A stretch of 32,462 nucleotides of DNA from a virus. Positions within the stretch are counted from its first letter, which is position 1; every line of letters begins with the position of its first letter. A program made the translations under genes and the position numbers. Below are positions 20,099-30,751 of the stretch, piece after piece. The DNA lies in the IMG/VR virus record IMGVR_UViG_3300021373_000485, positions 1 to 32,462 of that record; one strand, 5' to 3'. A model generated the notes under the pieces. That model worked only from the letters and a program-made list of their open reading frames with translations. It ran no database searches and was not told the DNA's origin.

Positions 20099-20110
20099 AA
20101 GATTATCCTC

Positions 20111-20149
20111 TTTTTAAAGCACAAAGGGGCCAGCACATAGGCCAGCCCC
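20111..20149 (-). terminator. Hairpin terminator after the major capsid gene
   Basis: On the minus strand the 64-base gap after the capsid stop contains GGGGCTGGC, a 6-base loop and GCTGGCCCC, giving a 9-base-pair stem if two G-U pairs are allowed, followed by TTTGTGCTTT. The G-U pairs work only in RNA read from the minus strand, which supports that direction. The U tract is interrupted, so this may be a partial terminator that lowers expression of downstream genes relative to capsid. Confidence 0.55.
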
Positions 20150-20162
20150 AAAGTTAAGGTAA

Positions 20163-21230
20163 TTATGCTACGTTGTAAATCGCAGATACCATCGCTTCTG
20201 GGCGTAGTACTTTGCGACCATATAGGTGCATACCACGTACAATATCAGCGAATGAATCTGGGTCACGATATGTTTCAACTTTGTTGATCTGCTCAGCAGC
20301 AGCAACAGCTGTATCATGTCCAGCGACAATAACACCGTAGTTTGTAGACTGAGGGGCTGCTGTTGACGCAGATGGGCCTGTACCCGCAGCAGGTAGGTTA
20401 TTTGAAACGTAAACACGGAAGCCGTGTAGGTTGTTCAATACCAAGCCATTCTGTAGACCTGAACCACCGAAATCAGAATTTAGGAGGCGTGAGTCTTCGT
20501 CTTTAAGCATCTCTACAAATACGGGGTCAACTACGAGCCAACGCCCATTTGAGTCAACGTTCTGTACGTCTTGCAAACGAGCCATACGTGCTACGATCTG
20601 CAAAGGAGATACAGTTGAGTCTGACAATGATTGTGCGCCTGGAAGACGAGGTGCAACTGGAATAGAATCACCAGCAGCTTCACCTGTTACGCCTGTTAGC
20701 TGACCTGTAAAGGTGAAAGCTGACATAACGTTTGAGTCTAGGTATTCACCAGTTGTGGCACCACCAGACTGATCACCAGTACCAGTACCTGAAATAGCAC
20801 CGTCACCAATACGAACACCAGCAGTTGTGTAACCAGATGCATAAGACAATACGTCTGAGTCAAACGCATCAGCCATTTTATAAGCTGCACGGTTTGACGC
20901 TAGAGCCATAAAGTCTACGTTAGCAAACTGGTCTTCGATGTCATCCATTTTGAATGCGAAGTAGTTTGCTTTGTCAATCTCTAGAGAGAATTGAGCATCT
21001 GCTAGCTTCTCAACGCTAATACCTGTGTGACGCTCCAATGCAGTAACTGCTACATCTGGTTCTTTCTGGATGCGAACAGTGTCACCTTGGTTTGCAATCT
21101 CACCGTAGTAAGAAGAGTTAGTAATAGCACTTGCTACTGACGCTTTACGTAGAGCAATCTGTGCTTGTTTGGAGTAAATAATAGGGGACCAGTTTCCTGT
21201 GAAACCCCCTGATGCGGAAGTAATAGCCAT
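20163..21230 (-). CDS. Major capsid protein (HK97-fold-like, 355 aa)
   Basis: Features: N-terminal MAITSASGGFTGNWSPIIYS, a region with DTVRIQKEPDVAVTALERH, then NRAAYKMADAFDSDVLSYAS resembling the spine helix, a Gly/Thr-rich insert (about 144-190), NGRWLVVDPVFVEMLKDED, a segment LHGFRVYVSNNLPAAG, and the C-terminal HLYGRKVLRPEAMVSAIY. The pattern and length fit HK97-fold capsid proteins of short-tailed marine phages. It lies between a scaffold-type gene and a terminator-like hairpin, has its own promoter-like element 200 bases upstream and a good Shine-Dalgarno (AAAGGA, 7 nt from ATG), all in keeping with a very highly expressed gene. Identification is from sequence pattern and gene order; no alignment was run. 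Confidence 0.85.
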   Translation of the reverse strand: MAITSASGGFTGNWSPIIYSKQAQIALRKASVASAITNSSYYGEIANQGDTVRIQKEPDVAVTALERHTGISVEKLADAQFSLEIDKANYFAFKMDDIEDQFANVDFMALASNRAAYKMADAFDSDVLSYASGYTTAGVRIGDGAISGTGTGDQSGGATTGEYLDSNVMSAFTFTGQLTGVTGEAAGDSIPVAPRLPGAQSLSDSTVSPLQIVARMARLQDVQNVDSNGRWLVVDPVFVEMLKDEDSRLLNSDFGGSGLQNGLVLNNLHGFRVYVSNNLPAAGTGPSASTAAPQSTNYGVIVAGHDTAVAAAEQINKVETYRDPDSFADIVRGMHLYGRKVLRPEAMVSAIYNVA

Positions 21231-21286
21231 AGTAAAGTTCCTTTCAATTAAGATATGGCGTTAAAACGAAACACTACATATCCACT

Positions 21287-21340
21287 GAAAGAGGCCAATC
21301 GTAATAGGGTAGTCAGCTATGCACATCAGAATGGCCTTTC
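21287..21340 (-). other. Hairpin in the long leader of the capsid gene
   Basis: In the minus-strand transcript GAAAGGCCA (21340 to 21332) can pair with TGGCCTCTTTC (21297 to 21287) with a two-base bulge, enclosing 34 bases. It lies about 90 bases downstream of the putative start of transcription and 57 bases before the capsid ATG. It could be a processing site or a stabilising leader hairpin, by analogy with the RNase III sites of T7-like phages. No U tract follows, so it is not a terminator. Confidence 0.4.
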
Positions 21341-21430
21341 TTTAGTGCGCTGGGCCTTTACTCTTGGGTAGTTCTTATAGTGTGGCGTTAGTGTAATAAT
21401 AGCACATATTGTATTGTACTATACATGCTA

Positions 21431-21461
21431 ATAGTTATACGTAGCAATTAAGCTATGTCAA
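21431..21461 (-). promoter_or_regulatory. Sigma70-like promoter for the capsid gene, with the shared TATAACTAT element
   Basis: Minus strand: TTGACA at 21461-21456, a 16-base spacer, TATAAC at 21439-21434. This is a full -35 consensus hexamer with a close -10 match (5 of 6). It begins immediately after the stop codon of the scaffold gene and predicts an about 195-base leader before the capsid ATG. The -10 lies inside the 9-base element TATAACTAT, also found upstream of the scaffold and DUF1127 genes. Confidence 0.65.
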
Positions 21462-21462
21462 G

Positions 21463-22410
21463 CTATTTTTTGGTTACATCATAGATGAATTTACCAGTAC
21501 GCATAGCTTCCATAATCTCGTCTTGTTTTGCTTCGTATTGCTTATAGGTCAGCTTATTAACTTTGCTCTCTGACCATAGAGAAGCGCTGTCATCTGACCT
21601 GGGTGTATTACGACCCTTAGATTTTACTGAAGAGGCTGCAGACTTATCGTCTGAGGTAGTCTTCTTGGCTGGGGTAGTAATTCCTTTGTCTGCCTTATAT
21701 AGATCAATAGCACGAGCTACAGATTTAGCATCATCTGGATCTTCATATAAAGCAGTCTGTATCCAGTTAGGCTGTTGTTCTGCCCAATCGTGGAACTCAT
21801 CGTCTGCACGAATCTGCTGGAAGTCAGGATGTAGCTGCAGTAGTTCTGCTTCTGCTTTTTCCCGACGAGCTTCAACTCGTAAAGACTCAATCTCACTTAG
21901 TCGTTTATCTAAATCAGAAGAACGTTCATTAGCTTTACGATCTGCAATAGCTTCTACAATACCAGCTACGTCAGGGTACTTCTTGGTCCAAGCTTCAATC
22001 TCTTCTTCTGACTTAGGCAATACTAACTCATTACGTGCAGCTTTGTCAAGTTGTGCTTCTAGCTTTTCGTACTTTAGTTTCCACTCTTGCTCTTTATCTT
22101 GTAGCAAGCGACGAATATCGCCGTACCGTTTCTTAAAAGTTTTCTCTTCACCTGTTAGCTCAGCATCATCTTCTTGTGCTTCGGCTTTAGGTTCTTCTTC
22201 TTGTTCGGTACTACTCTCTGCCTGTACTGGCTCTGCGACAGGCTCTTCGCTACTGGGTTCAGCTTCAGCAGTTTGTTCTTCTTCGTCTTCATTGCTGTAG
22301 CCTGCCTGTTTTAATAGAGCTTGTAGCTCTTCTTCGTCTTTCTTAATACGAGCTTCGTTTATCTTAGGCGCAAATGCCTTAGTTTGCATTACTTGAACTT
22401 CTTGTTGCAT
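21463..22410 (-). CDS. Capsid scaffolding protein (315 aa)
   Basis: Highly charged and acidic, with a Glu/Ala/Gln-rich low-complexity region (about 40-85), then predicted long helices (LTGEEKTFKKRYGDIRRLLQ, DKEQEWKLKYEKLEAQLDKA, ERSSDLDKRLSEIESLRVEA) and a basic C-terminal part (TYKQYEAKQDEIMEAMRTGK). Lack of Cys and Gly/aromatic richness, coiled-coil character and placement immediately upstream of the capsid gene fit a scaffold. No separate prohead protease is found nearby. An AAGGAAA-type Shine-Dalgarno precedes the ATG. The initial MQQEVQVMQ also offers a later ATG at residue 8; the upstream start has the better ribosome site. Confidence 0.75.
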   Translation of the reverse strand: MQQEVQVMQTKAFAPKINEARIKKDEEELQALLKQAGYSNEDEEEQTAEAEPSSEEPVAEPVQAESSTEQEEEPKAEAQEDDAELTGEEKTFKKRYGDIRRLLQDKEQEWKLKYEKLEAQLDKAARNELVLPKSEEEIEAWTKKYPDVAGIVEAIADRKANERSSDLDKRLSEIESLRVEARREKAEAELLQLHPDFQQIRADDEFHDWAEQQPNWIQTALYEDPDDAKSVARAIDLYKADKGITTPAKKTTSDDKSAASSVKSKGRNTPRSDDSASLWSESKVNKLTYKQYEAKQDEIMEAMRTGKFIYDVTKK

Positions 22411-22431
22411 TTTAGTTTCCTTATGTTGGGG

Positions 22432-22445
22432 CCAGCCGTAGCTGG
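22432..22445 (-). other. Small hairpin in the scaffold gene leader
   Basis: CCAGC / loop TACG / GCTGG on the minus strand, a 5-base-pair stem with a tetraloop, placed between the TATAACTAT element and the scaffold ribosome site. No U tract follows, so a terminator is unlikely. It shares the 9-mer GCTGGCCCC with the terminator after the capsid gene. Confidence 0.3.
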
Positions 22446-22453
22446 GTAGCCTT

Positions 22454-22462
22454 ATAGTTATA
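22454..22462 (-). promoter_or_regulatory. TATAACTAT promoter-like element upstream of the scaffold gene
   Basis: Minus-strand TATAACTAT in the 67-base gap between the 482-aa gene and the scaffold gene, 43 bases before the scaffold ATG. It contains a -10-like TATAAC and continues into AAGG. No TTGACA-like -35 is present at the usual distance, so it would need an activator or be read by a phage polymerase. Called because the same 9-mer recurs in two other gene-free gaps. Confidence 0.45.
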
Positions 22463-22477
22463 TGGTAAAGTTAGTGT

Positions 22478-23926
22478 TTACTTCTTATTTTTCTTTTTCA
22501 TCAAGCCGCCTTTGTTCATACCGCCCCATCCAGAGCCTTTAGATACAGAACCTTTTCCTCCTGTAGCTTCATCTGCAGAAGATTTTGTACCATATCCTTT
22601 AGACCCTGTTTGAGTTTGTGCAGCAATAGTTGTCCCTGCGTCAGCAGCCTTTTGAGCAATCTTCTGAGCCTTCTGAATAGCAGCTAATTGTGCAGCGTTA
22701 TCGGCGTTGCTTGCTTTATCTGCTAGAGATTTTGCAGCAGTTGCTGGACTTCTATTAGACTGAGATTTCTTAGGCTTTGCAGTAGGTGTTGTAGTTGAGG
22801 TAGTTTTTACTGCAGGCTCTTCACGACCTATACTAGTTCTAATCTTCTCACTCATTATAGGGTCTTTAGCAATACTCTTAATATAGTCTTTCATTGCATC
22901 ATCTTTAATGCCGCTAGGAATCTCAATACCGATAGACTCAAAATACTCTCTAGTATACCAGTCGCCATCTGCGTAGTTTCCAAAAGCGTCAGCAGCTATC
23001 TTAGTAGCAAGCCCTTGTCCTTGTATATACTTCGCAATATTATCTCTTAAATTTTTTGCTCCTGTTGCGTCACCTGAGGCTTCTAGAATATTAGCTTTAG
23101 CATACTGTTGTGCAACATTAGTCATACTAACAACAGTACCTACGCCTGGTACTACACTAGTTATAAAACTTTCTAATGCACCAGGCTGAGCAATATCTGT
23201 AGTTGTCCAATCAACACCTTCATACCAAGACTTGCGTTCTGGTGTAGGAGCTGGACCTGAGCCGCCGCTCTCTCCGTCTTTATATTGAGGCTGTATAGTT
23301 ACTGCAGAAGGAGGAGTGGTTGTATAACCCTGTGCAATAAGAGAGTCATACTTCGCTTGATCAGTAGGCAGAGTAAGCTTTACTGTCTCTCCGTTAGGAC
23401 CATAGAGTGTAACCTCTGTAAGAGGAGCTACAGCAGGTGCACCCATAGTCTGGTCTAACAGATAGCCAGGAGCAAACATAGCTCCCATACCACTAGTAAA
23501 CTGTGGAGTATAAGGATCTAAGTCAACACCATCAGCAGCGTACACTTTCTTCCTAGCCATACCACCGCCGTACATACCAGTCACTTCATCAAGTAGCGCT
23601 TTCTCTTCGTCTGACAAATCAGCATCGTCATAATCAAGAAGAACTTCACCCTCAACTGGAACAGGCTCACCACCAATACGACCATTAGCTTCCATATTAG
23701 CTAAGCCCATCTTAGCTTCTGCACGTAGGTCTTCAAAGAACTTAACACCAAAAAATCGAACAACATCAGCAGGTACTACGTACTCACCTTCACTTAGTTG
23801 CGCTGGGATGTCATCCCGTACCTCGCTAGCCATTGAGCCTGGGGGAATCTCATTGCCACTTACGGGATCTACGTCCATGCCATCGTCCTGCATGAATGCC
23901 ATTTCCATTTGTTCTTCAGTTGCCAT
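22478..23926 (-). CDS. 482-aa virion-type protein with conserved EGEYVVPADVVRFFG module
   Basis: The N-terminal 90 residues carry a module I recall from many marine phage proteins: DPVSGNEIPPGS (20-31), EVRDDIPAQLSEGEYVVPAD (35-54), VVRFFGVKFFEDLRAEAKMG (55-74) and NGRIGGEPV (81-89). Its function has not been established to my knowledge. The middle (about 240-370) is a helix-rich globular part (ESFITSVVPGVGTVVSMTN). The last 110 residues are low-complexity Lys/Ser/Ala/Gly, ending NKGGLMKKKNKK, a basic tag similar to tags on neighbouring proteins. Encoded between the 65-aa gene (11-base overlap) and the scaffold gene, so it is expected to be a head-associated or internal protein. Confidence 0.7.
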   Translation of the reverse strand: MATEEQMEMAFMQDDGMDVDPVSGNEIPPGSMASEVRDDIPAQLSEGEYVVPADVVRFFGVKFFEDLRAEAKMGLANMEANGRIGGEPVPVEGEVLLDYDDADLSDEEKALLDEVTGMYGGGMARKKVYAADGVDLDPYTPQFTSGMGAMFAPGYLLDQTMGAPAVAPLTEVTLYGPNGETVKLTLPTDQAKYDSLIAQGYTTTPPSAVTIQPQYKDGESGGSGPAPTPERKSWYEGVDWTTTDIAQPGALESFITSVVPGVGTVVSMTNVAQQYAKANILEASGDATGAKNLRDNIAKYIQGQGLATKIAADAFGNYADGDWYTREYFESIGIEIPSGIKDDAMKDYIKSIAKDPIMSEKIRTSIGREEPAVKTTSTTTPTAKPKKSQSNRSPATAAKSLADKASNADNAAQLAAIQKAQKIAQKAADAGTTIAAQTQTGSKGYGTKSSADEATGGKGSVSKGSGWGGMNKGGLMKKKNKK

Positions 23927-24113
23927 TAACTTCTTCCCTCATAAGTTTTAATCTACGTAGTGCAGCTACTTCTCCTTGCACTCTATAGATTGCGTCGATG
24001 TCGGTTGATTGTTCTAATCGGGTATGTGCAGAGCTTATTTTATTGTTGATATACTCTAAGTATGCATCCCATAGTGGCTTGTCGTTAACAAGCTTCTTTA
24101 GTTGTCCGTTCAT
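23916..24113 (-). CDS. Small coiled-coil protein between portal and scaffold (65 aa)
   Basis: MNGQLKKLVNDKPLWDAYLE, then helix-forming KISSAHTRLEQSTDIDAIYR and VQGEVAALRRLKLMREEV. Very short, charged, all-helical, no Cys. Small proteins of this form are common in the portal-capsid interval of marine phages, in my recollection. Its start overlaps the 471-aa gene by 4 bases (ATGA) and its stop overlaps the 482-aa gene by 11 bases, so it is translated in a coupled series. Possibly an assembly or portal-associated factor; unproven. Confidence 0.7.
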   Translation of the reverse strand: MNGQLKKLVNDKPLWDAYLEYINNKISSAHTRLEQSTDIDAIYRVQGEVAALRRLKLMREEVNGN

Positions 24114-25525
24114 TTAGTTCGTCTTTCTACTAGTCCACCTTTGTTGAACCGTAGTTTAATGTTTGCTGGATCAATAGTCAAGTTAGAAATATCTAGTAAC
24201 ACACCTTGCGTTTTATCAACAGCATCTTTAAAAGTGGTTCTATAAATAAGGTCTTTTTTACCTATCTTAATTTGATCACCTAACTCAGCTTTTAACTGCT
24301 TAAGAACTTTATTATATGCTGCTACATAAGTGTTATGAAAAGCAGAACCCTTTGCAATCTTTTTAGCTATCTCATTTTGAGCAAACCGTTTCTCTGCTAA
24401 CTTTTCTACAGGGGGTAATACAATCTGGTTAATATTTCTTGATTTAGCGTCAGATATAATGCCTGTTAAAGTAAGTCTGATTGCATCAGTAAGCTTTTGT
24501 ACAGGTAGATCTTTTTTGTTTGTAGCTGCCTTAAGATTAGCAATATAAGTACCTACCCTATTATGCATAGAATCTGTAATCATTCCTAACTGCTCGTCTG
24601 GAACATCGTCAAACTCTTTACTTAGTATATTAAACGTAACATTTGATATACTCCCGCTATCACCAAAGATAAGGTCTTCAGGAACATCAATATCTTTTAC
24701 AGCTTTTTTAAATATATCTTTACGTTCTTCTTTAGTTAGCTTTGTATCAAGCTGTGTAGGTATAACTACATCATCAATATAGCTTTTAACTTTATCCATA
24801 GGCGCATCAGGAAAACCGCTACCCTCCGTATTAATCATATACTCTAGATCTTCATAGCTATAATTTAAAAGTACATCTAATTCTGATCTTTGTTTATTTT
24901 TAAACTTAGGTAAATCGTCAACAATATTCTGTAAAGGGTCAGACTGAAGCTCTTCTATTAGAATGTATTTATTTTGTCCTGGTTTATCAGGGAGAGACTC
25001 CCCCTTACGAATGCTATAACGACTATGTGCTAAATTAGAAGAACCGAAGTGTGTCATCAAACCTAGATCATCTTCAGACTCAATGCTTAGTTCTACATAA
25101 TCAAACTCTGGATCAATTAGATCACTTTGCCGTTGCTGTAAGCGGTATGTATCCCCCTTCTTGATTGCTTTTATAGGCATTTCACCACCTATTAAAAACT
25201 TAACGTCATCAGAACGATACTTCTCACTTGGGACCAAAGCACCTCTTAAGCCCCGATACTCCATCTCACCTTGTGTGACTTTAGGTGCACGTTTACGTAC
25301 ATACGCTTCGATGTTCTCGCCACGTGTACCTTCTTTGCCTATAGGTGCTTCATCAATAGCACTCTCTAGAGGACTGTAGAATCGTGCCACTGTAGGGTCA
25401 TTAGGATCAGCTACATCAGTTAGTGCTTCATCTGTTTGTTTGAACATAGGGTTGTACTTAGGGTTGTCAATGATACCCAGCGCTGAGCTTAGCTCTTTAG
25501 CTATCATACGAGAGATGCCTGACAT
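24110..25525 (-). CDS. 471-aa protein with FYSPL / HFGxxNLAHxRY / EELQSD motifs, function unknown
   Basis: Contains ARFYSPLESAID (47-58), GEMEYRGLRGAL (86-97), MTHFGSSNLAHSRYSIR (157-173), YILIEELQSDPLQN (187-200) and, further on, NQIVLPPVEKLAEKRF. I recognise this set from domains within very large phage and mobile-element proteins, where it is uncharacterised; here it stands alone. The central 200 residues are helical and Lys/Asp-rich. It ends RFNKGGLVERRTK, a basic KGG tag. The ATG overlaps the portal stop (TAATG). Possibly an internal virion protein delivered to the host. I would not name an activity. Confidence 0.65.
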   Translation of the reverse strand: MSGISRMIAKELSSALGIIDNPKYNPMFKQTDEALTDVADPNDPTVARFYSPLESAIDEAPIGKEGTRGENIEAYVRKRAPKVTQGEMEYRGLRGALVPSEKYRSDDVKFLIGGEMPIKAIKKGDTYRLQQRQSDLIDPEFDYVELSIESEDDLGLMTHFGSSNLAHSRYSIRKGESLPDKPGQNKYILIEELQSDPLQNIVDDLPKFKNKQRSELDVLLNYSYEDLEYMINTEGSGFPDAPMDKVKSYIDDVVIPTQLDTKLTKEERKDIFKKAVKDIDVPEDLIFGDSGSISNVTFNILSKEFDDVPDEQLGMITDSMHNRVGTYIANLKAATNKKDLPVQKLTDAIRLTLTGIISDAKSRNINQIVLPPVEKLAEKRFAQNEIAKKIAKGSAFHNTYVAAYNKVLKQLKAELGDQIKIGKKDLIYRTTFKDAVDKTQGVLLDISNLTIDPANIKLRFNKGGLVERRTK

Positions 25526-27633
25526 TATTGTACGTTCCCGCTAAATCCTTGCTCTCCTGGTTGAGGAGCAGTTCCTACACCCATAGTACCACCACCAGAC
25601 CCAGTAGTGTCTTCTACTTGTACTCCTGCAGGCGCTCCCTCTTCTGGAGCAGCACCCTGTGCAGGGGCAGGCTGTGGTGCAAACTTCTTAAACAACTCAG
25701 CTTGTACTGCAGCGTCTGCCATAGAGTTAGTCACCTTGTCTGGGTCAAGGTCCATACTCTTAGCAATCTCACGAATGATGTAATCCATTTTAGCAAACGG
25801 AGCAAGGACTGGGTTCTGTGCTACCTGTAAGAACTGCATTAGGCGCTGGGAGCGAATCTCGTTAGACATCAAGCTCTCTGTACCAGATGCTTTGACTTCT
25901 AAGTCGCCCTTGATTGACTCATCAAAGTCAAACTGCATGTTAAAGCTAAAGAATGCCTTACCTAGAGGTCCAAGCAGATAGTCATCAACGTTCTTAACTA
26001 CGGAGCGTATAGAACCATTAGCAGCAGACATAAGCATAGAAATACCAGAGGCAGTCCGACCAACGCCGCTGACTCCAGTTTGACCGTGAGCAAACGAAGG
26101 AAAGCCTGTACTTTCATCAGCCAAGACACGAGCCTTGTCGAATAGCTGCATATTTTCTTGTGCAACATTAGGAAACTTAGTTCCAAATATAGCTTGACCA
26201 GGTGCACCGCCTTGTCTACGGAAAACTTTTCCTGGATATACACTGAGGTCTTGACCAGGTACAAGGTTAGTCTCGTCAACTTCAATGATCAAATTTCCTG
26301 ATAGTGCAGCGTTGTCAATAGCCATACGCATAAAGCCATTCATCAACGTCTGCGTGTCGTCCATGTTTTCAGCAATACCAATACCAAAGAAGCTGTACGG
26401 GTTATGCTCGTAAGGTGTTGCGTAGTAAGGGATACGTGCAGGCTTGAATGGGTTCAATACCATACGCATTACTTCACCGTTACAGATCCAGATGTTACAG
26501 TTAACTTCGTCTAGGTTACGCAACTCACGTGGAATCTTTACGCCATTCTCTTGTAGAATATCTACATCAACAAAACCCCAGAACTCCATAACCTCCCAGC
26601 GCTCGGATTCTGGTTGAGCATCGTCATCCTCCATGCTCATTTCCCAGTGCTTCTGCACATAGTCTGGGCCTTTAGAGATTGCCATCTCTACAGCCTCATC
26701 ACGGAAGTAAGGACGATTCTTCAATCCACGTAGTTGTGTGCGTGACATCTTATGACGCTCAACAACATATTCTGCATCATCCATTGAAGTAGCTTCTGGA
26801 TCAGGATAGAAGTTCCATATAGATACGTGATTACACTCTGGTACAGTTTTGATTAATGGATCGTATGAACCTGAGCTATCCCAGTTAGGATATTCTTTAT
26901 CTACAGCAAACGGACCTTTCATAACACCCGTACCTAGTAGTGCCATCTCAAAAGCCATAGAGCGTAGATGCTTAGATGCACCTGACTCGTTCAACTGATC
27001 GTGGATCTTCTTTTCCATCTTCTTAGCTGCAACCATTGCAGGATGGAAAGTAACATTAGCTGCTGTAGTGCCTGGACCTTCAATTACTTTTTCAGTAACA
27101 GGTGCTAGTTTGTTTTGCATACCAGCTAGACGTTCTTGAAGATCTCTTAGAGTTTCTCCTGGAAGTAGCTTGCCATCGTCGCCTAGAAGAGCTGTAGGGG
27201 CTGCTGGAGAAGCGGAAGCATTTTTTAGCTCCTCCCCTGCCATATCAGCGTTAGGGTCAATATTGACGTGTACAGAGTCTGCTACGCCATCTGGAAGTAC
27301 TGTAGGATCTACAGATAGAGGGAACTTGTTGTTACCAAACAGTACGTCGATGATCTGTCCGTATGCAGCTAGAGTCTTAGTCTTAGTTACCTTAACAAAT
27401 ACACGAGACTTCTCTGAGTCTGTGAACTGTACCTCTGAGCTATACAAACCCCTGTAGTTACGATAAGCACGTAACCAGCGCTGTTCGTCGCCATAACGTG
27501 CATCTTCTGCCCGTTTATAACGTTCATTAACATACGTCACTACACTACTGACAGAATCGAATAGTTTGTCACTACCGTCTTCTGCAGCAACAACTTCGTC
27601 TGTTTCGAAATTTAGATCATCAATATCTGCCAT
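25525..27633 (-). CDS. Portal protein (702 aa)
   Basis: Immediately follows the large terminase (3-base gap) and is the only long gene in the packaging cluster with portal-type features. These are an N-terminal helical region with RYGDEQRWLRAYRNYRGLY, a beta/helix core (ASKHLRSMAFEMALLGTGVM; SIWNFYPDPEA; DAEYVVERHKMSRTQL), the stem-like HNPYSFFGIGIAENMDDTQT, an aspartate/asparagine-rich loop and a long C-terminal helical part (NEIRSQRLMQFLQVAQNPVL). The C-terminal tail is Pro/Gly/Gln-rich and disordered. It forms the dodecameric DNA gate at the capsid vertex and docks TerL. Length is at the upper end of podovirus portals, close to P22 gp1. Confidence 0.85.
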   Translation of the reverse strand: MADIDDLNFETDEVVAAEDGSDKLFDSVSSVVTYVNERYKRAEDARYGDEQRWLRAYRNYRGLYSSEVQFTDSEKSRVFVKVTKTKTLAAYGQIIDVLFGNNKFPLSVDPTVLPDGVADSVHVNIDPNADMAGEELKNASASPAAPTALLGDDGKLLPGETLRDLQERLAGMQNKLAPVTEKVIEGPGTTAANVTFHPAMVAAKKMEKKIHDQLNESGASKHLRSMAFEMALLGTGVMKGPFAVDKEYPNWDSSGSYDPLIKTVPECNHVSIWNFYPDPEATSMDDAEYVVERHKMSRTQLRGLKNRPYFRDEAVEMAISKGPDYVQKHWEMSMEDDDAQPESERWEVMEFWGFVDVDILQENGVKIPRELRNLDEVNCNIWICNGEVMRMVLNPFKPARIPYYATPYEHNPYSFFGIGIAENMDDTQTLMNGFMRMAIDNAALSGNLIIEVDETNLVPGQDLSVYPGKVFRRQGGAPGQAIFGTKFPNVAQENMQLFDKARVLADESTGFPSFAHGQTGVSGVGRTASGISMLMSAANGSIRSVVKNVDDYLLGPLGKAFFSFNMQFDFDESIKGDLEVKASGTESLMSNEIRSQRLMQFLQVAQNPVLAPFAKMDYIIREIAKSMDLDPDKVTNSMADAAVQAELFKKFAPQPAPAQGAAPEEGAPAGVQVEDTTGSGGGTMGVGTAPQPGEQGFSGNVQ

Positions 27634-27636
27634 AGA

Positions 27637-29094
27637 TTAGTACCCGAAAGTTGCGTCTGACACTTGAAAGCCAGAACGTTGAGATTTAGATGGGTCATAG
27701 TCCCAAATAGAACTGCGTGGTCTTGTCATTATGCCATACCTTAAAGCATCATACAAGTGATCTTCTGAGTTTGTGTCTACATCCTCTGGATTCTTTTTAT
27801 CTAGAGGTATAGACGGTAACTGAGAGATTGTGTTTGTGCAGGTAGAGAAAAATACGAGTCTTGGCTCCTCAGTAAATTCATCTACCTGTAAGCGGCGGTG
27901 TATCTCGTTTTTGCCTGAAACACGGGAGCCTCTTGAGCGATCAGAAGGACGCCATCGACATCCTTTCATGTTCATCTGCTCTGCCAAGGAAGGGCCAGTA
28001 TCACCCCTGTTGTGCCAAAGTGACGAGTCTAACACGCCGTATCTGATTGTCCCATCATCTGACTCTGCATCTAGAATCATATCAGCTAGGTCAGAGGCTG
28101 TCACTTTACTACAGTAAAGCTCTCTATAGACAACCAGTTGTTCTGCAGGTGTTACTGCAATCCATACAACGCCTGTATGAGAACCATATCCATAATCGCA
28201 AGCTCTAAACTTAGTCCAGGACTGAGGTATGTCGTAAGGTTCAACAACGTGTATCTTTCTGTTAAACTCAGGGAAAGCTGCTCCTTCATTGACATCCCAG
28301 TTACCCTCAAGAAGCTGTTTCCTTTGATGTTCTGGCAGTGACAAAAGCATTGCTTCATAGTCACCACTCTCTGCTAAATATGGATTATCGAACAAACTGG
28401 CTGGAATAAACCTACGTTTAAATAGAGGTTCTCCTGCTTTACTATGACCATTAGGATAGGTCAGTGTCTCTCCTGTTTCAATGTCTGTAGCCCAGAACGG
28501 TTGATTAGCAGGCGATGGGTCAATAAACATTTTCTTAACCCAAGAGTGACCTGGACCACCAGGGTTAGTTGTAGCTCTCATGTAAAGTCCTAACTCTTTA
28601 GAGCTACTACGTAGACGTGAACGCATATAGTTCCACGCATACGGAGTGTTCCACTGAGTAAGTTCGTCAAAGGCTACATAGTTAAAGGCCTGACCTTGGT
28701 AGCGCATAACGTCTGTATCTTTGTCTAGGTAAGACATCCACAGCCTGCCGCCCCTTGGTGTAGTCCATTGCGACTTACGTTCAGACCACTTAATACCTGG
28801 TATAGCTTTAGGGTATAAGTCCTGACTCTTTTGTATAAGCTCACGAAGTTCTTCAGTTGTGTGACGAACTAGTAGTCCACTAAACGCTTCGTTACCTAAA
28901 TCACGTAGAGGATCGGCTAGAGTCGCATAAGACTTACCGCCTCCTGCTGCACCACCATATAGTACTTCTCTTTCAGAAGATGCTAGATATTGTGTTTGTG
29001 GACCTGGGTTAGGCTTAAATACTACGTTCTGCGCCTCTATAGGGTCAAACTCAGCAGGTTTAACTGTGGCAGCTACTACTTCTACTTCAGGCAT
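27637..29094 (-). CDS. terL: Terminase large subunit (485 aa)
   Basis: ATPase motifs: Walker A GGAAGGGKS (residues 47-55), Walker B with catalytic Glu in VAFDEL (140-145), and a TTNPGG coupling motif (175-180). Nuclease acids: D300 in CDYGYGSHTGVV, D356 in VLDSS and D449 in LYDALRYG. Together these show a complete packaging motor subunit. Start: the frame stays open upstream to an ATG at 29220, which would give 527 residues but overlap the preceding gene by 134 bases with a Lys/Ser-rich extension; the ATG at 29094 overlaps it by only 8 bases (ATGCCTGA) and opens with MPEVEV before the conserved region, so I prefer it. The portal gene follows after 3 bases. Confidence 0.9.
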   Translation of the reverse strand: MPEVEVVAATVKPAEFDPIEAQNVVFKPNPGPQTQYLASSEREVLYGGAAGGGKSYATLADPLRDLGNEAFSGLLVRHTTEELRELIQKSQDLYPKAIPGIKWSERKSQWTTPRGGRLWMSYLDKDTDVMRYQGQAFNYVAFDELTQWNTPYAWNYMRSRLRSSSKELGLYMRATTNPGGPGHSWVKKMFIDPSPANQPFWATDIETGETLTYPNGHSKAGEPLFKRRFIPASLFDNPYLAESGDYEAMLLSLPEHQRKQLLEGNWDVNEGAAFPEFNRKIHVVEPYDIPQSWTKFRACDYGYGSHTGVVWIAVTPAEQLVVYRELYCSKVTASDLADMILDAESDDGTIRYGVLDSSLWHNRGDTGPSLAEQMNMKGCRWRPSDRSRGSRVSGKNEIHRRLQVDEFTEEPRLVFFSTCTNTISQLPSIPLDKKNPEDVDTNSEDHLYDALRYGIMTRPRSSIWDYDPSKSQRSGFQVSDATFGY

Positions 29095-29515
29095 CTTCTT
29101 CGTAGGTGTAGTAACCGAGCCTTTCTTTTTCGAGGATCTCGTACTGCTTGATCGCTTTTTCGTACCTTTCGGCAAGCTTGCGTTTAATTGCAGCAAGTGA
29201 TTTACGTTTTCTTTCGACATCTATTCTTTTTCTAAGTCCTGAGTGTGATATTTTTCTACCTGATTGTGTAGACAGCCAAGCAGCCACTTCCCTATAACTA
29301 TACTGCTTTAAGTGTTTCTTTGCAAGCTCTAATAGTTCTAGTTCTTTAGGTATTGGCTTTAGCCACTCATTATCTTCAGGATCTATCTCATAACCAAAAG
29401 GTACTTGGTGTGTTAGTCGAGGAACTCGTTCCCACTTTTTTATCTTAAAGTCTGGCTTAGGAAGCATCCAATAACCTAAGCTCTGTCTTTCTTTTTGTTT
29501 AGTTATCCGTATCAT
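29087..29515 (-). CDS. Helix-turn-helix DNA-binding protein between terminase subunits (142 aa)
   Basis: The core HQVPFGYEIDPEDNEWLKPI, followed by PKELELLELAKKHLKQYSYR, EVAAWLSTQSG and KISHSGLRKRI, resembles the DNA-binding Recombinase domain of large serine recombinases (PFGY...P..E...+..S.R.IA.WL...G...S..G...+), but there is no catalytic resolvase domain. The C-terminal 50 residues are a basic coiled coil (RKRKSLAAIKRKLAERYEKA). It lies between the small-terminase-like and large terminase genes and overlaps both, so a packaging or DNA-recognition role is likely; it may be a second terminase small component. Start chosen at the ATG at 29515, which overlaps the previous stop by 17 bases; a later ATG (before LPKPDF) is possible. 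Confidence 0.7.
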   Translation of the reverse strand: MIRITKQKERQSLGYWMLPKPDFKIKKWERVPRLTHQVPFGYEIDPEDNEWLKPIPKELELLELAKKHLKQYSYREVAAWLSTQSGRKISHSGLRKRIDVERKRKSLAAIKRKLAERYEKAIKQYEILEKERLGYYTYEEDA

Positions 29516-29873
29516 CAGACTCTTTAGGAGGTAGAATAAACAGCCCACCTGATGACTGAACTTCTACACGCTCTGTTTTTACTACGCCTGCACGGTCTAG
29601 TACTTCTTTAGCTGCCTGCATTTTTTCTTTTACCCCTAGCTCTGTAGGATCTACAAGTGCATTACCAAAAGCTACAGCTGCCTTAGGTCCAATACGTGCC
29701 ATATAAGACTTTGTACCATCAAAGATCTCATCTTTAAGGGATTCTACAATAGTACGAGTAGGTGTGGAATCGCTGTAGCCAGCAAGCTTCTTCGCCTTAA
29801 CTACATCACCGCCTGCTTCATCGAACAGTACTTCGAGAAACTTTACTTGATTTTCTGTTAGATTTCTTGCCAT
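29499..29873 (-). CDS. Terminase small subunit-like protein (124 aa)
   Basis: N-terminal helix-turn-helix-like region: LTENQVKFLEVLFDEAGGDV, VKAKKLAGYSDSTPTRTIVE. It is followed by a helical oligomerisation-type part (KAAVAFGNALVDP; KEKMQAAKEVLDRAGVVKTE) and a beta-type C-terminus EVQSSGGLFILPPKE. The pattern LDRAG(V/L)VK.E.VEV.S.GG.FILPPK is what I associate with marine phage small terminases. A good Shine-Dalgarno (AGGA, 8 nt) precedes the ATG. It is the gene two upstream of TerL. It would recognise the packaging site and load the motor on DNA. Confidence 0.75.
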   Translation of the reverse strand: MARNLTENQVKFLEVLFDEAGGDVVKAKKLAGYSDSTPTRTIVESLKDEIFDGTKSYMARIGPKAAVAFGNALVDPTELGVKEKMQAAKEVLDRAGVVKTERVEVQSSGGLFILPPKESDDTDN

Positions 29874-29997
29874 TGTATTTCCTATAGACGTTTTCAGCTA
29901 TTCTCTTGTAAGTAGTAATAATAAGTATGTTGCCGTTCTTATCAAAAGCATAGTACTTATTGTTTAACTTTGTTACACAGTCAGATAAAGTACGAAT
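29818..29997 (-). pseudogene. Open frame without a usable start, possible gene remnant
   Basis: In the 97-base gap between the coiled-coil membrane gene and the small-terminase-like gene, the minus-strand frame reads CVTKLNNKYYAFDKNGNILI then ITTYKRIAENVYRKYNGKK, which looks like protein (aromatic and beta-branched residues in strand-like spacing). It ends with a TGA at 29818 inside the next gene. No ATG or GTG lies in frame; the only candidate is a TTG at 30045 with no ribosome site, deep inside the upstream gene. It may be the end of a decayed gene or chance coding. It could in principle be read as a -1 extension of the upstream gene, but I see no slippery heptamer. Confidence 0.3.
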
Positions 29998-30428
29998 CCT
30001 AAAACACCAAACCCTACCACTAAAAGAGTACCAGACACTGCCCAAGTTATGATAGCTTCTTGAAGTTCAGCTTTACGGTACTCATGTTCCTTTTTTTCTT
30101 TACGTATCCTGGCCTCAGTAGCAACAAGAGAATCCCATGCTGAAGGACCATACACAAAAGATATATGAGAGCGAAGCTCTTCCCGCATCGCATCTGCCTT
30201 ACGCTTTGCATTCCAAACTTCGAGAGCTTCTGCTTCTACAGACCCGCCAAGGGACTTCCACCAAGGAGGGTTGTTTGCTTTTTGCTCAGCATAAGATAGA
30301 TCACTCATAGCACCAGCCCACTGAGTTAATTGGCTGGACATATCTTGTAAGTCCTTGCCTATAGCAAAGCCTTTCTTAAGTGCGTTAAAGGCGACAGTGG
30401 CCCCACTGATTATTGTTACTGGGTCCAT
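29973..30428 (-). CDS. C-terminally membrane-anchored coiled-coil protein (151 aa)
   Basis: Residues 1-25 form a mildly hydrophobic helix (MDPVTIISGATVAFNALKKG). The middle is charged helix with an NNPPWWKSLGG break at 52-62 and a conserved-looking FVYGPSAWDSL segment (91-101), then a basic coiled coil (RIRKEKKEHEYRKAELQEA). A single transmembrane segment closes the protein (about 126-150, ITWAVSGTLLVVGFGVLGFV). I recall this architecture in uncharacterised marine phage proteins, including cyanophages. Placement before terminase does not fix a role; a lysis or membrane-remodelling role is possible. It has a strong Shine-Dalgarno (GAGGAGG). Confidence 0.7.
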   Translation of the reverse strand: MDPVTIISGATVAFNALKKGFAIGKDLQDMSSQLTQWAGAMSDLSYAEQKANNPPWWKSLGGSVEAEALEVWNAKRKADAMREELRSHISFVYGPSAWDSLVATEARIRKEKKEHEYRKAELQEAIITWAVSGTLLVVGFGVLGFVLYLTV

Positions 30429-30452
30429 ACTGCCTCCTCAAACAAGTATAGA

Positions 30453-30665
30453 TCACTTAATACCTTCTTGGACAACACGTTTAATATCGCCACGTCCAAT
30501 ACCAATATCGTTTAGTTCACGATCTGACATACGATACAGATGCATTTCCGCAATACGACGATTTGCTTCTGCTTGACGTGCTTCAATTAATGCCTGTAGC
30601 CCACGAGCAAACCATGCTTTAATGTCATGCGCCCACTTAGATGATTGATTTATTACTAGTTCCAT
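30453..30665 (-). CDS. DUF1127-like small protein (70 aa)
   Basis: Residues 46-61 read MSDRELNDIGIGRGDI, the hallmark of DUF1127 (YjiS-like) proteins, preceded by a helix with EARQAEANRRIAEMHLYR. Known: DUF1127 proteins are small Arg-rich proteins abundant in alphaproteobacteria; CcaF1 of Rhodobacter sphaeroides is reported as RNA-binding, and DUF1127 proteins influence RNA turnover and phosphate responses in Agrobacterium. In this copy the usual Arg run is weaker than typical. It is the first gene after a TATAACTAT element and has an excellent Shine-Dalgarno (AAGGAG, 8 nt), so it should be well expressed. Inference: a captured host-type RNA-binding regulator acting on host or phage mRNA. Confidence 0.75.
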   Translation of the reverse strand: MELVINQSSKWAHDIKAWFARGLQALIEARQAEANRRIAEMHLYRMSDRELNDIGIGRGDIKRVVQEGIK

Positions 30666-30699
30666 TATATGTACTCCTTATGTGTTAACGGAAACATAT

Positions 30700-30708
30700 A
30701 TAGTTATA
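30700..30708 (-). promoter_or_regulatory. TATAACTAT promoter-like element upstream of the DUF1127-terminase cluster
   Basis: Minus-strand TATAACTAT in the 86-base gap, 34 bases before the DUF1127 ATG. A TTGAAC lies further upstream in the same gap (30737-30732), but its spacing of 23 bases is too wide for a normal sigma70 promoter. Called because the 9-mer is shared with the gaps before the scaffold and capsid genes. It would start the transcript carrying DUF1127, terminases and portal. Confidence 0.45.
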
Positions 30709-30751
30709 CTAGATTAATCACCTATTTAGTAGTTCAATTTTGGAATACCCG

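Follow-up and report, generated by a model that had tools for sequence, protein, structure and literature searches.

Why would one 9-base word, TATAACTAT, stand on the minus strand in three gene-free gaps of a phage genome: before the capsid gene, before the gene at the scaffold position, and before a small DUF1127 gene? The window (the whole stretch of DNA that was analyzed, 32,462 nucleotides) is a 32-kb virus record from which the early region is absent. Matches to its capsid, portal, and terminase identify it as part of the genome of a podophage of the HMO-2011 type, close to Roseobacter phage CRP-2. CRP-2 is the closest complete genome that we found (74% identity for the capsid). Its gene order matches that of the window, and the capsid gene, the scaffold position, and the DUF1127 position are preceded by 221, 67, and 81 bp of gene-free DNA. 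HMO-2011-type phages are a dominant and broadly distributed group of marine viruses (PMC9038755). The words "promoter" and "RNA polymerase" do not appear in that paper, and our literature search found no published promoter or transcription map for the group.

All three copies that an earlier note had reported are present (Table 1). As that note claimed, an exact scan found no other copy on the minus strand; there is a fourth on the plus strand. The DUF1127, scaffold, and capsid gaps (86, 67, and 232 bp) do total 385 bases, and among the gaps between genes the capsid gap is the largest, the DUF1127 gap the third largest, and the scaffold gap the fourth largest (the second largest is 99 bp). The capsid copy is indeed the only one of the three with a TTGACA -35 element, which lies 16 bp upstream. 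The note was also right that the other two have none.

Table 1. Features of the window that are discussed in the text.
Feature	Position	Strand	Evidence
Major capsid (coat) protein gene	20163..21230	-	phrog_267, E 6e-51; 74% identity to CRP-2 coat protein
Capsid gene's predicted structured leader RNA, with a hairpin at the 5' end and then a long multi-helix domain	21231..21430	-	covariation, covariance model
TATAACTAT copy before the capsid gene, putative -10 element plus extension	21431..21439	-	exact match
Predicted capsid promoter: TTGACA 21461-21456, 16-bp spacer, TATAAC 21439-21434; conserved CTA extension to 21432	21434..21461	-	
Gene upstream of capsid, scaffold position	21463..22410	-	phrog_13678, E 4e-59; the PHROGs matched are of unknown function only
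Predicted leader hairpin GGCUACCCAGC-UACG-GCUGGCCCC with CUAC/CC internal loop	22428..22451	-	conserved, compensatory stem changes
TATAACTAT copy ahead of the scaffold-position gene; lacks a -35, may or may not be a promoter	22454..22462	-	exact match
Fourth TATAACTAT copy, inside minus-strand genes, no -35, background	29293..29301	+	
Small DUF1127 protein gene	30453..30665	-	PF06568, E 7e-8
TATAACTAT copy ahead of the DUF1127 gene; probably a -10	30700..30708	-	exact TATAACTA in 48/56 relatives

Could an AT-rich word simply recur by chance in gaps that are themselves AT-rich? The window has just four copies, and allowing one mismatch gives only a weak excess (24 observed, 17 expected; 6 of 100 shuffles were as high). 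Because this excess is weak, the exact core matters. Dinucleotide shuffling gives an expectation of 0.81 copies on both strands, and 1 of 100 shuffles had four or more. The placement of three of the four copies within the window's six gaps has a chance probability of about 2e-5. Also, all three gap sites are orthologous and conserved in relatives, which number in the dozens. These comparative data already contradict a chance origin, which we consider hardly credible. Instead, sequence comparison indicates that the word is a promoter core, conserved in a sigma70-type class that is specific to these phages. This is best shown for the capsid copy and likely for the DUF1127 copy, and it may hold for the scaffold copy.

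A probable promoter class in HMO-2011-type phages

The capsid copy is the clearest member of the class. Among 87 non-redundant regions upstream of capsid genes, from related contigs and isolates, 84 contain TTGACN-N16-TANAACTA, and no spacer other than 16 was seen. All 84 have C rather than T at -7, so they lack a feature of the general bacterial sigma70 consensus, and the T-6 A-5 that follows is invariant; since homologous sites share ancestry, counts of conserved columns overstate the independent evidence. To our knowledge, the T-6 A-5 extension is not part of the sigma70 consensus and is not explained by known sigma70 contacts. It is the best argument for an extra factor. TTGACA, 16 bp, and TANAACTA open the capsid gap in CRP-2, CRP-603, CRP-207, CRP-13, CRP-1, CRP-9, CRP-345, and HMO-2011, and the promoter is kept even in isolates with 58-60% capsid identity. 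The capsid gap of CRP-738 has no such promoter, and ctYwJ313 has an 18-bp spacer and a location upstream of an inserted gene.

In the window and ten isolate segments together, we found 21 instances of TTGACA-N16-TANAACTA, versus about 0 expected (from 12 replicates of a first-order Markov model). Other spacers were rare: four instances of N17, and one for N14, N15, N18, and N19 combined. The sigma70 arrangement of a TTGACA-like -35 at 16-18 bp from a TANNNT-like -10 is present at the capsid site and at 21 sites in the isolates plus the window, and is absent from the scaffold site and from the window's DUF1127 site. The earlier note's promoter reading would have been undermined by an equal density of the motif inside genes. 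We found 33 of 48 copies of TATAACTA in noncoding DNA and 15 in coding DNA, even though noncoding DNA makes up 6.2% of the sequence (p = 6e-29 over the isolates).

The class recurs after the DNA polymerase gene (at its 3' end, on the plus strand) and, reading leftward, at the right end of the isolates' genomes. At the end of the DNA polymerase gene, the promoters (L085 12686, L091 5022, and equivalents, on the plus strand) read into the next replication genes. One of the right-end promoters overlaps a gene start on the minus strand (L090 49079, L091 47899, L093 49124, L086 2945, and L088 48526). There, TTGACA runs straight into ATG, and the -10 is TAAAACTA or TACAACTA within codons; the peptide coded at this -10 is a conserved (V/I)(K/Q)LY, of the SVKLY type. 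The right-end promoters are mixed at -7, so we rejected T versus C at this position as a marker of early or late promoters. We also rejected an extension of the -7C class to pelagiphage HTVC103P, which has TTGACA-N16/17-TATAAT instead.

To quantify specificity, we called a viral contig HMO-2011-type if it encoded a protein that was at least 50% identical over 150 amino acids to HMO-2011-type isolates. When 2.9 million viral contigs were scanned for TTGACA-N16-TATAACTA, 75 of the 80 matches listed were HMO-2011-type, versus 2 of the 80 listed for a wrong-spacing control (N22). TTGACA-N16-TAWAACTA occurs in 1 of 198 genomes from the host family. Given these results, the full motif marks the phage group and not the hosts. 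The TANAACTA class was also absent from 760 kb of low-GC Rhodobacteraceae DNA, which is a weak test, and from two host 16S upstream regions; in both, the host consensus was too noisy to define. The idea that the element was imported along with a host DUF1127 gene was rejected: TATAACTA is upstream of 0 of 56 host loci.

We conclude that TATAACTA(T) is probably the -10 region of an HMO-2011-type promoter class, with the consensus TTGACA-N16-TANAACTA, that is read by the host's RNA polymerase with the housekeeping sigma70.

The DUF1127 and scaffold copies

Before DUF1127, TATAACTA is exact in 48 of 56 relatives. This copy is probably a -10 of the same kind as the capsid's, and its -35 is weak or missing. 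In the window, as in relatives with AAAGGCCCA upstream, this site has just one copy and lacks a -35. In one DUF1127 subgroup, AAAGGCCCA lies at a fixed distance from TATAACTA. The sequence AACGGG(T/G)(A/T)T(T/G)C(C)A is conserved where the gene preceding DUF1127 reaches its stop codon (about 30725-30751 in the window).

Another arrangement, in one subgroup, is TTGCAW-N17-TATAACTA-N6/7-TATAACTA. Both copies hold (the second is occasionally TAAAACTA) and the 6-7 bases between them drift. A scan of viral contigs for the N6 tandem found at least 80 loci; among the matches listed, 41 of 80 have TTGCAW 17 bp upstream. Tandem copies 14-15 bp apart are found at L090 47111-47096, L092 44592-44578, L093 46231-46216, and in many contigs. 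The second copy is near +3 of the predicted transcription start. When a -10-like element lies just within the transcribed region, it can make the polymerase pause in a sigma70-dependent manner (PMC7876045), and in this respect the subgroup resembles promoters of the lambda pR' type. However, the two elements are 14-15 nt apart (start to start), versus 11 bp for the E. coli figure (PMC7876045). Also, unlike at lambda pR', in some phages the second copy and the region around the start codon base-pair with each other, and the resulting hairpin would hide the ribosome-binding (SD) site (fold z of -5 to -7 in a subset).

Alternatively, TATAACTA might be bound by a phage activator or repressor, so that its likeness to a -10 is secondary and the DUF1127 tandem is a double operator. 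The conserved 8 bp exceed the sigma70 hexamer, the tandem copies are invariant while the bases between them drift, and the full motif is practically limited to the phage group among the matches listed, all of which would suit such a regulator. But in 21 cases the element is exactly 16 bp behind a perfect TTGACA, and copies 14-15 bp apart sit on different faces of the helix. Furthermore, we did not find a conserved regulator: a protein with a winged helix (HTH_39) was rejected as a candidate because it is present in just 3 of 9 isolates (CRP-2, CRP-603, and CRP-207). We therefore view a regulator's binding site as unlikely, and we prefer the -10 reading for the capsid and DUF1127 copies.

The scaffold copy is different. 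TATAACTA is exact in 45 of 94 relatives, and the constraint at this site, [T 69%]-A-T(93%)-A-A-C(87%)-T(75%)-A-T-A-A-G-G without a -35, is unlike the pattern at the capsid promoters. Directly 3' of the element is GGCUACC-stem-loop-stem-GGCCCC, with compensatory changes in the stem. So the scaffold copy may be a promoter without a -35, or it may be an RNA-level element that is joined to the hairpin. For instance, it could be the AU-rich 5' flank of the leader hairpin, such as an endonuclease site before a protective stem-loop, with no promoter at all. That the sequence upstream is coding and variable, that the first T is conserved in just 69% while a strict ATAAGG-CUACC hairpin is next to it, and that CRP-9 and CRP-13 retain the hairpin while TATAAC is gone, all fit an RNA element. 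On the other hand, TATAACTA is exact in nearly half of the relatives, and the hairpin starts where a -10 at this position would place the start of the transcript. We regard the RNA element without a promoter as a serious contender, if somewhat short of probable; for this copy, we give a promoter and RNA processing roughly even odds.

Leader RNAs

All three gaps are predicted to encode folded leaders. For the capsid leader, 16 of the 36 predicted pairs have changed on both sides, with 68 such cells versus 17.4 in shuffles, and the covariation score is 0.252, whereas slid controls reach no more than 0.090. When genomes are searched with a covariance model, each yields a single copy, at the capsid position. 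The window, as a member of the training set, scores 160.8 bits, and matches outside the training set include HMO-2011 (E 0.004), CRP-9 (2e-6), and ctYwJ313 (8e-4). A search of the gaps against Rfam found nothing at E values of 1 or below; the one sub-threshold match, to an sRNA, is inside a gene. Strongly covarying and conserved across HMO-2011-type phages, the leader of the capsid gene is a previously undescribed RNA and a candidate regulatory RNA.

The first helix of the capsid leader and the scaffold hairpin both begin within about 2 nt of the start that is predicted from TANAAC. By eye, a CUAC/CC internal loop between two helices occurs once in the scaffold leader and twice in the capsid leader, in reversed and nested forms. 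A helix, CUAC/CC loop, and helix can also be seen, again by eye, twice before the scaffold-position gene of pelagiphage HTVC103P (L589, about 42435-42535). Just past the capsid gene (20099-20162 of the window, minus strand), GGGGCTGGCC-TATGT-GCTGGCCCC followed by TTTGT looks like an intrinsic terminator.

What would read the promoters

The earlier note proposed phage-controlled promoters with a special -10-like core. The promoter core, its restriction to a lineage, and the special -10 are borne out; a special reader is not, given the perfect TTGACA at fixed spacing. In particular, a MotA-like activator had been suggested. Perfect -35 elements at fixed spacing at the capsid, post-DNA-polymerase, and right-end sites make these look like sigma70 promoters that need no such activator. 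The DUF1127 and scaffold copies do resemble the T4 middle promoters (MotA/AsiA) in having a -10 without a good -35. However, there is no -30 box that is common to all of the sites (no conserved box upstream of scaffold, and AAAGGCCCA upstream of one DUF1127 subgroup), and the -35 of the capsid copy is perfect. When 29 CRP-2 proteins were scanned against PHROGs and Pfam, there was no relative of MotA or AsiA among the 25 families listed.

The other reader that had been suggested was a single-subunit polymerase of the T7 type, with ACTATAAGG, which superficially resembles the end of a T7 promoter, as the initiation region. This resemblance is explained by the conserved hairpin before scaffold, which starts at GG. 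A T7-type polymerase gene (PF00940) was absent from all eight complete relatives, while the same search detected T7's own at E 1e-109. Also, no T7-like recognition block is conserved upstream, and several kinds of sites have TTGACA at fixed spacing. These observations already contradict a T7-type promoter, which is very improbable. A phage sigma factor was rejected too, as nine isolates had no sigma-70 region 4.

Over 60% of the sigma70 promoters in alphaproteobacteria, as identified from maps of start sites, lack the T at -7, and CarD was proposed to compensate (PMC8407463). Because most alphaproteobacterial promoters lack -7T and we found neither a T7-type polymerase nor a phage sigma factor, the host's sigma70 polymerase is the simplest reader. 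Points that weigh against it are the invariant T-6 A-5, the rarity of the full motif in host-family genomes, its absence as a class from the 760 kb of low-GC Rhodobacteraceae DNA, and the lack of a -35 at two of the window's three copies. The CarD domain was not found in nine phage isolates; CarD-domain proteins are present in the genome of Shimia (Rhodobacteraceae). The likeliest reader is host RNA polymerase, perhaps with help from CarD. CarD's involvement would be a further step beyond these comparisons.

The alphaproteobacterial promoters without -7T (PMC8407463) share with the phage class a TTGAC -35, a TANAAC -10 that lacks T at -7, and the class of host. The phage promoters differ in their fixed spacer of 16, their invariant CTA extension, their near-consensus strength, and their restriction to one group of phages, and the link to CarD in the alphaproteobacteria is itself a proposal. 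The strong early promoters of T5 and T7 (A1-A3) are similar in their near-perfect -35 and in the expected reading by host sigma70, but the HMO-2011-type class also stands before a structural gene (capsid).

We infer that the host's sigma70 holoenzyme would bind TTGACA-N16-TANAACTA, that CarD may compensate for the base other than T at -7, and that the first transcribed base would be some 7 nt past -7. Folded leaders would then form the 5' ends of the transcripts and might stabilize the mRNA or control translation. More speculatively, these phages might have a private promoter code, in which -7C with an obligatory T-6 A-5 is read by host polymerase with a dedicated factor or CarD, the second TATAACTA before DUF1127 acts in pausing or as an RNA switch, and the leaders with CUAC/CC loops on late mRNAs make up a new family. 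This is possible, and we hold it tentatively.

The motif is specific enough to pick HMO-2011-type phages from millions of viral contigs, so it could be a marker for fragments of their genomes. The promoter signature would provide the first predicted transcription map for these phages, and the capsid leader is a new candidate regulatory RNA. With the motif, one can also ask directly whether the -7-less promoter code of alphaproteobacteria is one that phages exploit.
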